This document shows, piece by piece, positions 6,329 through 18,510 of a stretch of 64,000 bases of DNA. How positions within the stretch are numbered: position 1 is the stretch's first letter; each line of letters begins with the position of its first letter. Where the stretch lies: assembly GCA_012932865.1 (NCBI GenBank), contig SAXG01000006.1, positions 124,001-188,000 of the forward strand. The letters run 5' to 3'. Made by a program: the position numbers and the translations under genes. The notes under the pieces are model-generated. The model did no database searches, was not told the DNA's origin, and saw only the letters and a program-made list of their open reading frames with translations. The stretch is from Amylostereum areolatum. Its lineage: Eukaryota > Basidiomycota > Agaricomycetes > Russulales > Stereaceae.

Positions 6329-7623
6329 ATGTACAACGGTAGCGGCATCAAGTTTTTCACCGGTCACTTTCTTTCCCTTGCCTGTCCTCGTGCGAGCCGC
6401 GCCGCTGAGCGAAATTTGTAGGAACCAGCCATCCCGAGCTGGCGGAGCTCATCGCGCGTCGGTGCGTCCCCATCTGGCACTCGCCCGTCCGATCCTCATC
6501 CATTTCCAGCCTCGGCATCCCCATCTCCAAGGCGTCGGTGACGAAGAGCGGGATCGGAGAGACGAACGTGCGCATCGCGGAATCGGTGCGGGAGGACGAC
6601 GTGTACATCCTCAACTCTGGATGCGGGGACATCAACACCGGGCTGATGGAGCTCTGCATCATGATCCACGCCTGCAAGATCGCGAGCGCGCGACGGATAA
6701 CGGCGGTGGTGCCACTGTTTCCGTACGCGCGGCAGGACAAGAAGGACAAGAGCCGTGCGCCGATTACGGCCAAGCTGGTGGCGAACATGCTGCAAAAGTC
6801 TGGATGCGACCATGTGATCGTACGTACGCGGGGAGGAGGCGAAACGGGCTATGGCAGACGCTGACGGGAGGGGTGAAATCCAGACCATGGACCTGCACGC
6901 GTCGCAAATCCAGGGATTCTTCGATGTGCCGGTAGACAAGTGCGTAAACGCATCGTTGTTTGGGATGTGGCTGATCGGGGTGCGTCGTTTGCAGCGTAAG
7001 TGGAATTTAGCCACTGGGGGTGGGCGTTCGAGTTGACATTAGGGGGTGTGAAGCTGTACGCGGAGCCGTCGGTGACGCTGTACGTGCGGACGCACTTTGA
7101 CCTGGCGAACGTGGTGATCGTGTCGCCGGACGCGGGGGGTGCGAAGAGGTAAGCGAGGGAGGGTTGTGTGCTCGGATAAGCTGACGGGTGGGACAGGGCG
7201 ACGTCGATGGCGGACCGACTGGGAGTGGATTTCGCGCTGTTCCACAAGGAGCGAAAGAAGGCGAACGAGGTGTCGCGGATGGTGCTGGTGGGGAACGTGA
7301 AGGATCAAGTGGCGATACTGGTGGACGACATGGCGGACACGTGCGGGACGCTTGTGCTGGCGGCGAAGCAGCTGTCGGAGGCGGGGGCGAGCAAGGTGTA
7401 CGCGATCGTGACGCACGGGATCCTGAGCGGGCGGGCGTTGGAGGCGGTGGAGGAGAGCGCGCTGGAAAAGCTGATCGTGACGAACACGCTGCCGCAGACG
7501 GCGAACCAGGCGAAATGTGCGAAAATCGAGGTGATCGACGTTGGGCCGGTGCTAGGGGAGGTCATACGCCGAAGCCACTACGGCGAGAGCGTGTCCAAGC
7601 TGTTTAACGAAGTACCGTACTGA
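6329..7623 (+). CDS. Ribose-phosphate pyrophosphokinase (PRPP synthase)
   Basis: The enzyme makes PRPP from ribose 5-phosphate and ATP for purine, pyrimidine, His and Trp synthesis in the cytosol. Exons are 6329..6362, 6422..6461, 6510..6819, 6884..6939, a single base at 6995, 7054..7148 and 7197..7623. Together they total 963 nt (320 residues), matching the roughly 318 of animal PRPS1. Visible family sequence includes [62 protein letters not shown] and [10 protein letters not shown], and the PRPP-binding loop [11 protein letters not shown] near residue 222. The N-terminus [12 protein letters not shown] fits the family start. All introns are 48-64 nt. The frame holds only if the 1-nt exon is used; no base insertion is needed elsewhere. 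Confidence 0.93.
6995..6995 (+). other. Putative 1-nt micro-exon of the PRPP synthase gene
   Basis: The preceding exon ends GACAA. Intron 6940..6994 (55 nt) runs from GTGCGT to TTTGCAG. One base, C, follows, and then intron 6996..7053 (58 nt, GTAAGT ... GAAG, with TTGAC branch-like site). Joining AA + C + CTGTAC gives Asn-Leu-Tyr, the family sequence VDNLYAEP. A single intron 6940..7053 instead shifts frame and soon meets TGA. Confidence 0.7.
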
Positions 7624-7940: not shown

Positions 7941-10900
7941 ATGTTCCATCCCCCCTCTCTTCCCCCTCAACCCGCCTTCTTTCCTCACAACAACCTCCTC
8001 AACCCCAACAACCTCCCCCCCAAACTCCCGAACACGAAGGAGCCCTTCGTCGCACAAGCCATCCCCGCCGTCCATCTCGCCCACAACGTCCTCCACTACG
8101 GCGATGCGAACAGCTGTACGTCCCCGCCCCACCCCTCTTTTCCCTTCCCGAACACCCCTCACCCCCACCCCCACCCCCCCAGCTTCCACCCGCTCTTTCA
8201 CGCCCATCAAGGCCGTCGGCGACGGCTCCTTCGGCACCGTATGGCTCTGCGATTGGCATGGGGAACTACCGTCCGATACACCCCTCGCCGCCATGCAATC
8301 CGGCGCTGGCGCACGCCCAGAGTACGCTAACAAGCGTCTCGTGGCTGTCAAGCGCATGAAAAAGAAGTGGGAGGGCGGTTGGGACGAGTGCAGGCGTTTG
8401 AAGGAGCTCGAGGTCCGTCCTTTCTTTCCATTTCCCCCCACCACCTTCCCCCTCCTCTCCTCTCTCCCCCTCCCACTCACCCCATTTCTCATCCCCAGGC
8501 TCTCAGAGCGATCCCCATGCACGAGAACATCATTCCCCTTTACGACTCCTTTCTTCCTCCCGGAGACCAAGGAGCTCTACTTCGTATTCGAGCCCATGGA
8601 GGGCCACCTCTTCCAGCTTATCAAAGCTCGCAAGGGTCGTCCCCTCGCAGGCGGTCTCGTCGCCTCCATCTTCCGCCAAATCGTCTCCGGCCTCGACCAC
8701 ATTCACCTCTCCGGTTACTTTCATCGCGACATGAAGCCCGAGAACGTTCTCGTCACCACCACTGGCCTGCACGACTACCCCAACCTCTCTCCCAACGGTG
8801 GAGCCGTCGAGAGGGACGTGATGGTCATCATCAAGCTAGCCGACTTTGGCCTCGCCCGCGAAACGAAGAGCAAACCGCCGTACACCGAGTACGTTTCCAC
8901 GCGCTGGTACCGCGCCCCAGAGGTCTTGCTCAAGAGCAGGGAGTACTCCAACCCCGTCGACATGTGGGCCTTGGGCACCATCATGGCCGAACTCGTCAAC
9001 TTGCGGCCTTTGTTTCCGGGAAAGACTGAGTATGATCAGATCACAAAGATCACCGAGGTCCTGGGCGATCCTTCCGACGACTATGGTCTCGACGCCCGAG
9101 GTAAGGCCATCGGCGGGGGCAAATGGCCCAAGGGCATCAAACTCGGTAAGAGCGTTGGCTTCACCTTTCCCAAGGTGCGTTCTTTTCCCCTCTTCGCCCC
9201 ACTGACGTCAGCTGACTCGCTCCCACCCACCCAGACGCAACCGAGGGACATTACATGCATGTTCGATCAGCACGTCCCCCCCAAGCTCATTCAATGCATC
9301 GCCGACCTGCTCAAGTACGAGCCTGGCGCGCGGCTGACCAGCAGGCAATGTCTCGAACATCCTTATCTCTTGGAAACCGCCCGCGCGATGCCACCTCTTC
9401 TGCCGACGACCGCCCCGGCCCCTCCTCTCGCAGGCCATCGCAACGGCGTTCACACCTCGGGTTCGTTGCCAACCGGCGCCCCTCGTGCTCACCCTTCGCA
9501 GACCCATTTTCTCAACGGCCATACTCCCTCTCACCTTCCCGATGCGTCCGCTTCCCATCGCCAGTCCATCTATTCGACCTCGAGCGGGCCGGCGGCGACG
9601 TACGCCCCCGAACCTGCCTACGCCCATGTCAAGCACTTGCACGACCCGATGCACCCGTCCTCGCATCAGGTGCAGCATTCCATGTCGTCCACGTCCTCGT
9701 ACATGAGCTCGGTTCCATCCGATCCGGGAATGTTCCCCACCGTCCACGGGGAAATCAGCGAAGAGTACGTCAGGCAGCCGATGGACGTCCAGACCCAGAC
9801 GTCCCCTATGGCAACGGATTACCCCATGCGCCCACCTCTGGACGCGGACGCGATGTTGGACCCCACGAACCAAATCGTGCAACCCATCCCGTCCGGCACC
9901 GTGTTTGGAAAGTTGTCCGGCCTGCGCAAGCAGCACAAATGGGGCGGGCTTTTCGGCCACAGCGAAAAGCCCACACAGGGTCCGCTCGCCCCCGTCGACG
10001 AGGTCCAAGACCACAACCCGACGTCGCTCAAACGGTCCAAGTCGTCGAGCACGAACGACAGCCACTCCGCTGTGGACGTTCCCTCGATTTCCGAGCCTCA
10101 GCGCGATCCGCGCAAAGTCAAGAAGGAGGCGGAGCGCGTGGCACGCGAGGCGGAGAAGCAGCGCCGGGCCCTCGCGGAGAAGAACCATCGAGAGCAAGCG
10201 CGTGCCGTCATCGAGAAGCGGAACCTCATCCAACAACAGCAAGGTCGCTCCGACATCGATTGGAAATGGCAACACCATGCCGCGCTCGCGAACCCCCACC
10301 TTGTTCCCGAAGCCTCTCCACCGCCACGCTTCGAACCGCGCGACAAGGGCAAGAGCGCGCACGGTGGGGGTCCCATCCGGCAAATCTCGGCTTCGAACGG
10401 GTTTGGACCGAGCGCACCTTACAGCTGGCGGGCGGAAGAGCGCATGGCCAAGGCGCGACGGCGGGAATACGACGACGACCATTCGATGTCGTCCTCGGAC
10501 GTTCAGAGCATTGGGCCTATGTCCGCAATCTCCTTTGCGACCGTCGACAGCGATCCCGGTCCTTCTCAGCCGCCCGCCCTGCTCCGAAATCGACCGAGCT
10601 TGTTGGGCATACGGGGAACGTCCTCACGGGCGTCGTCGTCGCTGCGGCAGTTCGACGAGTATTCGATGTCGGCGCGATCGTCGCAGTCGCATTCGTTCGA
10701 GCAGCAACTGGTCCACGACTTTCATTTGCGAGCGTCGGTCGACAGCGGCTCGATCTCGGATGCGGGGTCGCCGCCGCCGATGCACGCCCTCACGCTTTCG
10801 CCGCAGCATTCATGGCAGACCGTGCGAGATAGGAGTCCGGACGTCAGCATGGCCCAACCCCAACCCTCACGGTTGTTCATCCCTCCTCACCTGCAGCACG

Positions 10901-17845: not shown

Positions 17846-18510
17846 CCTGAGAGATCCTATCACCATCCAATCAGCTCACTCTCCCTGTTTAGCTAATAAG
17901 TAGATGTGTTGCAATTTACTACACCACCAGCAGTTGCCTCAGCATGACTCTATGCGGGGCCATTCGGATGAGTCTGATGGCGTGACCAAGGGTTCACGCT
18001 AGCATCGTGTCAGCTTCAATCCAACCCCCTCAATCTCGGCGCCATTCCGATTATCCGTTGCGAGAAAGTCGGCTTCGCGCCCAAGTCAGCGTGAGTACAG
18101 GTTGTCCTCTCAGTTTCAATCCCCACAGAGTCCTCGATGGACGGCGACGAGCGCGGGTTATGTAAGCAGTATTCATTTTCGTCGTCGCGCCAAGTCATCC
18201 TCGACTCCTTGTTTCCTCTCACCATGTCCTTCTCTTCTCCCCGTCCTTCACCTGGCCATAACCCCTCATCTGTAATGGGCGACTCCGACGTACCGAGATT
18301 TGGACGGCGCGTCAGGGTTTCCGTGGATGTACGAAGGGTTGGGTATGGACTCTCCCTTCGACACTCTCATGTGGGCATCATCCAGAGTCTGGACCATGGT
18401 GCGTGTTCTATTCACTTACCGCCCACCTGCCCTCGCGACAGCATTCAGGATTTGCACATGCTCCGGCGCCCCTCTTGTTGTCGCTGGCAGTCGTCCTCAC
18501 CTTCGCTCGC

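Follow-up and report, generated by a model that had tools for sequence, protein, structure and literature searches.

The one-nucleotide exons of the plant genes APC11 and VPS55 are conserved over land plants and absent from reference annotations (PMC8831610). They share with the locus presented here a nuclear setting, spliceosomal introns, apparent conservation over a large clade and omission from annotation. VPS55 also keeps a GTRAGT donor directly after the single base, as GTAAGT follows it here, and the existence of intronless copies is a further parallel. Unlike ours, the plant cases have longer introns and are proven by RT-PCR, with base changes in protoplasts as additional proof for APC11 (PMC4674806 and PMC8831610). 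In Arabidopsis APC11, which the initial annotation of our locus had named as a precedent, Guo and Liu argued, as we do below, that the two introns are removed in succession, and they point to a potato gene, with an exon of 9 nt, in which the second intron is removed first (PMC4674806).

In fungi, CYP621A of Fusarium carries a nuclear one-nucleotide exon with read evidence in two species, which its authors call the first in a fungal gene; nearly all orthologues reported there have a faulty gene model at this position (PMC12940212), and most annotated orthologues of our gene likewise deviate. Both are nuclear fungal genes in which one base needed for the frame lies between two short introns within a conserved motif. 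Our case concerns Agaricomycetes rather than an ascomycete genus, a central metabolic enzyme rather than a P450 of unknown function and a C rather than a G, and it is predicted from sequence and homologues, whereas the Fusarium exon is backed by reads. One base is also left between two introns in placozoan mitochondrial cox1, where it is again a C for a conserved residue (PMC5436844), and in fungal mitochondrial rnl (PMC12308204); these organelle introns belong to group I or group II and are not removed by the spliceosome. Fungal stwintrons are two short introns side by side that are removed in succession (PMC5639578), as proposed here, but a stwintron keeps no exon base whereas one base is kept here.

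We analysed a 64,000-nucleotide stretch (hereafter the window) of the 57.1-Mb, 182-contig assembly of Amylostereum areolatum. Its gene for PRPP synthase (ribose-phosphate diphosphokinase) very probably contains a constitutive one-nucleotide exon, C6995, with the flanking introns removed in turn and the exon likely shared by orthologues. C6995 joins the nuclear one-nucleotide exons of plant APC11 and VPS55 and Fusarium CYP621A, few of which are known, and extends them to an essential enzyme of central metabolism. As far as the literature searched goes (titles, abstract openings and passages, with few subscription journals), it is the first in a basidiomycete: we found no one-base exon in a basidiomycete or in PRPP synthase, and the basidiomycete texts that use the word microexon do so only for a mapping option or give 6 bp as the shortest exon, in Phanerochaete P450 genes.

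Gene structure and product

The gene product scores 384.7 bits against NCBIfam NF002320 (cut-off 297), which covers residues 4-316 of 320, and 358.7 bits against TIGR01251 (cut-off 113). Its best relatives with a solved structure are human PRPS1 chains (E about 1e-131), and the closest proteins among the best 120 of 7,989 matches come from Agaricomycetes, with 88% identity in Heterobasidion and Auriscalpium and 87% in Laccaria and Scleroderma. The features of the gene, in window positions, are:

6329-7623, + strand: PRPP synthase gene from start to stop codon, with six introns and a 320-aa product
6363-6421, + strand: intron 1, 59 nt, GTCACT...TGTAG, from frame and protein homology
6462-6509, + strand: intron 2, 48 nt, GTGCGT...TCCAG, from the gene model
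6820-6883, + strand: intron 3, 64 nt, GTACGT...TCCAG, from the gene model
6940-6994, + strand: intron 4, 55 nt, GTGCGT...TTGCAG, phase 2, from the gene model and splice enumeration
6995-6995, + strand: predicted one-nucleotide exon, C, completing the Asn147 codon (AA+C) as its third base, from the gene model, enumeration and homologues
6996-7053, + strand: intron 5, 58 nt, GTAAGT...GTGAAG, from the gene model and splice enumeration
7149-7196, + strand: intron 6, 48 nt, GTAAGC...GACAG, from the gene model

A complete acceptor, a single base and a complete donor stand together at 6988-7001 (TTTGCAG-C-GTAAGT). The initial annotation had described two back-to-back introns of 55 and 58 nt around a single C, completing an Asn codon and making the coding sequence divisible by three, and the anatomy of the sequence bears this out. 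With C6995 the coding sequence is 963 nt (320 codons plus stop) and the protein aligns gap-free at the site to human PRPS1; without it, that is, with one intron from 6940 to 7053, it is 962 nt, the frame is lost and an early stop follows (VDNCTRSRR*). The exon is predicted to complete the Asn codon of VDN-LYAEP at its third position. Codon 147 would encode Asn as AA+C or AA+T and Lys as AA+A or AA+G.

Intron 5 ends in AAG (GAAG), the sole AAG acceptor among the 12 introns examined in this gene and its paralogue, and passes over a nearer TAG at 7042 in favour of the AAG at 7053, which counts against the model. Possible branch sites, judged by the general consensus, are CTGAT in intron 4 and TTGAC (7033-7037) in intron 5; the TAG at 7042 would then lie some six bases downstream of the probable branch A, a distance that is probably too short for use. 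Asn147 corresponds by alignment to Asn144 of human PRPS1, and N144S stands among relapse-specific leukaemia mutations in a review table (PMC7403961, table entry).

Splice solutions around C6995

We enumerated GT or GC donors at 6905-7050 and AG acceptors at 6930-7089, with a minimum intron length of 40 nt for one-intron and 35 nt for two-intron solutions; GC donors were admitted because the paralogue in the same genome has two GC-AG introns. Within these bounds 79 solutions are in frame and free of stops (28 with one intron, 51 with two), and exactly one of them, the one-base exon model, joins VDN directly to LYAEP. The initial wording on single introns is therefore too strong: none of the 28 yields VDN-LYAEP, but all 28 leave an open frame. 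Similarly, a TAG does close the read-through, as had been argued against any exon longer than the C, but a 5-nt exon CGTAA with the acceptor ending at 7042 is open and inserts VRGVK. The single introns 6944-7053 and 6932-7053 are open as well and give VDKC-LYAEP (321 aa) and VP-LYAEP (317 aa). Against NF002320, the one-base exon model keeps its 384.7 bits, compared with 377.1 for the intron 6944-7053, 368.0 for 6932-7053 and 377.5 for the 5-nt exon. In cDNA, the junction would read GACAACCTGTAC under the one-base exon model and GACAAGTGCCTGTAC under the VDKC model.

The array at C6995 exceeds chance expectation: AG-N-GT occurs once within the 114 nt (6940-7053), and when the interior was shuffled 20,000 times with dinucleotides preserved, YAG-N-GTAAGT arose in 7 cases, YAG-N-GTRAGT in 28, and YAG-N-GTRNGT with two introns of 44 nt or more in 65. 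Taken alone, however, the short motif YAGNGTRAGT is not unusual (2 found against 1.3 expected over the whole window), so the case rests on its position in the frame and on homologues. The other acceptor-base-donor array, CAGCGTGAGT, lies at window positions 18087-18096 on the + strand, where chance alone would account for it.

Homologous proteins at the VDN site

The best 120 of 7,989 matches were split by source into 52 proteins with NCBI genome annotation and 68 known only from jgi or lgn sets. The latter have an uninterrupted frame on short contigs (longest contig per protein 963-6274 nt) and, as the gene has introns, we take them to be spliced transcripts and call them cDNA-like. Scored over the segment between GFFDVP and L-Y/F-AEPS, the cDNA-like proteins read VDN in 67/68 cases and VDS in the remaining one, while the genome-annotated proteins read VDN in 5 of 52 and deviate in 47 (Fisher P 2e-26, to be read loosely as the sequences are related). 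The deviating forms are VDK (23), absence of VDN (6), VDKW (5), VDKC (2), VDKY (2), VDNVSD (2), VDNVS (1) and longer or odd strings (6). VDKC-type annotation is carried by Heterobasidion irregulare (P0004) and Dentipellis (P0079), and VDNVS stands at the site in three annotated proteins (P0030, P0103, P0054). All internal indels in the alignment of the 120 fall at residues 145-147. Near-identical pairs show the same without recourse to statistics. The Pleurotus ostreatus PC15 model P0092 differs from the cDNA-like P0072 at one of 320 residues, K147N, and P0090, a Suillus clintonianus model, departs from P0010 solely by lacking VDN.

Near-uniform VDN in the cDNA-like proteins beside frequent deviation in annotated ones fits relatives whose genes share the same hard-to-annotate exon. 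Loss of VDN fits a donor shifted to the GTA of Val145, and VDKC, VDKW and VDKY fit a donor 4 nt further on, at the second GT of GTNNGT. VDNVS matches the translation of a C that runs on into GTAAGT, and VDK at unchanged length would fit a transcript alignment in which a junction was forced and a single mismatch accepted, though in some of the 23 VDK models it could also be a real Lys beside an ordinary intron. The five annotated proteins with VDN (P0001, P0005, P0035, P0038, P0043) may come from genomes that were modelled correctly or that have a different arrangement. C6995 has splice sites on both sides, a place in the frame and in a conserved residue, and uninterrupted relatives of the same length, as a nuclear one-nucleotide exon does. 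A contig search for orthologue DNA returned 15 loci, all bacterial by title, and 2 viral loci, at 42-46% identity and none fungal; from the proteins we infer that other Agaricomycete orthologues most likely carry the same exon in their DNA.

Probable spread across Agaricomycetes, and controls

One deviating species was examined in each of six orders:

Pleurotus (Agaricales): VDK
Suillus (Boletales): VDN missing
Auriscalpium (Russulales): VDN missing
Gelatoporia (Polyporales): VDK
Jaapia (Jaapiales): VDK
Plicaturopsis (Amylocorticiales): VDK

Errors other than VDK, which expose the frame problem itself, are present in Boletales and Russulales. They also occur in Agaricales (for example Cyathus and Tricholomella) and Polyporales (for example Trametes elegans and Dichomitus). 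The protein pattern makes a conserved exon fairly clear in four orders, and in six if the VDK models count, Jaapiales and Amylocorticiales being represented by VDK only. The exon is probably older and more widespread than the initial annotation could see, and its fixation before the sampled Agaricomycete orders parted has good support at the protein level.

Searches aimed at fungi beyond this class yielded chiefly animal proteins and Agaricomycetes already in hand, and these lists were used as controls. VDN-L-Y/F-A/S is present in 120/120 of the matches listed in the first set (animals where named) and in all 29 new proteins of the second (mostly animals, one Allomyces and two that look like Agaricomycetes), hence in 149/149 together. 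Allomyces, the sole other fungus recognised by name, reads VDN. Culex quinquefasciatus P0121 was the top match for a mixed query, with a score far above the rest, and may be a repeated-domain protein or an odd gene model.

Alternative explanations

The single intron 6944-7053 (GTAAAC...GAAG, 110 nt) would give an ordinary gene structure, is in frame and stop-free, and is the form annotated in the Heterobasidion irregulare and Dentipellis models named above. Its product is absent from the cDNA-like relatives (0/68), falls short in family score and breaks a motif kept in every control sequence, and we regard it as very unlikely to be the true structure. Slightly less likely still is an assembly error in which a base is missing at the junction, such as one C before the donor at 6940, so that one 114-nt intron would do. 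One additional base would indeed suffice, but independent genomes are in trouble at the same codon (47/52 models), 114 nt is about twice the length of the gene's other introns (48-64 nt, the range spanned by all six introns of the model), and a full acceptor-base-donor array of a kind found in 7 of 20,000 shuffles stands in mid-stretch. The pattern of deviation, with indels confined to residues 145-147, argues against such an error, which the initial annotation had itself envisaged, and for a conserved exon, and we consider the error highly improbable.

A stwintron, in which one intron interrupts a splice signal of the other and nothing is left behind, also offers two neighbouring short introns and is known from fungi. 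Removal of all 114 nt, however, produces the frameshift to VDNCTRSRR* described above. We rejected this arrangement, to which we assign next to no probability, as C6995 must remain for the frame. The one-base exon is the sole enumerated solution that restores VDN-LYAEP, has the best family score and matches the cDNA-like relatives. The earlier reading of C6995 is in this way supported, and the observation is real as far as sequence and homologues go, its description having been right in the main.

Proposed splicing and significance

We infer that in this species C6995 is spliced as an exon flanked by two short spliceosomal introns of ordinary type, 55 and 58 nt long, each of which would be recognised across the intron. 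Sequential removal is most likely, because simultaneous occupancy of the two splice sites flanking a single base is improbable. The downstream intron may go first, because its donor is a full GTAAGT while the upstream donor is GTGCGT. Skipping of the C would yield the frameshifted, early-stopped message, and if the exon, fixed before the orders parted, had been kept as a splicing control point, splicing efficiency would help to set PRPP supply; we consider this combined history unlikely.

The interest of the locus lies in its likely conservation across much of a class and in the recurrent mistakes that public protein models show at this site. The finding suggests that such an exon has been kept over much of a fungal class, and with 47/52 annotated orthologues among the best 120 matches deviating at a nearly invariant residue, alignments, structural models and expression work based on these proteins may carry an error forward. 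The 114-nt unit would also offer a compact natural substrate for studying how the spliceosome handles two introns one base apart.

Paralogue and neighbouring gene

A paralogue in the same genome encodes VDNLYSEP within one uninterrupted exon; having no intron at the VDN site, it gives no date for the one-nucleotide exon. It is present in two copies on the minus strand of contig 45, at 663000-667000 (L036) and 671500-675500 (L037), which share an orientation, lie some 8.5 kb from each other and are 99.25% identical over 1339 bp. There is little similarity in the flanks (82% over 112 bp upstream), and the pair could reflect a recent duplication, gene conversion or an assembly effect. Six introns are predicted in L037, of which two are apparently GC-AG as judged by protein homology:

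L037 reverse complement 1482-1528: GC-AG intron, GCATGC...CCACAG
L037 reverse complement 2434-2490: GC-AG intron, GCACGT...CCCCAG

Downstream of the PRPP synthase gene, at about 8100-9400 of the window on the + strand, lies a short-intron gene that appears to encode a protein kinase, with motifs such as HRDMKPENV and DFGLAR.
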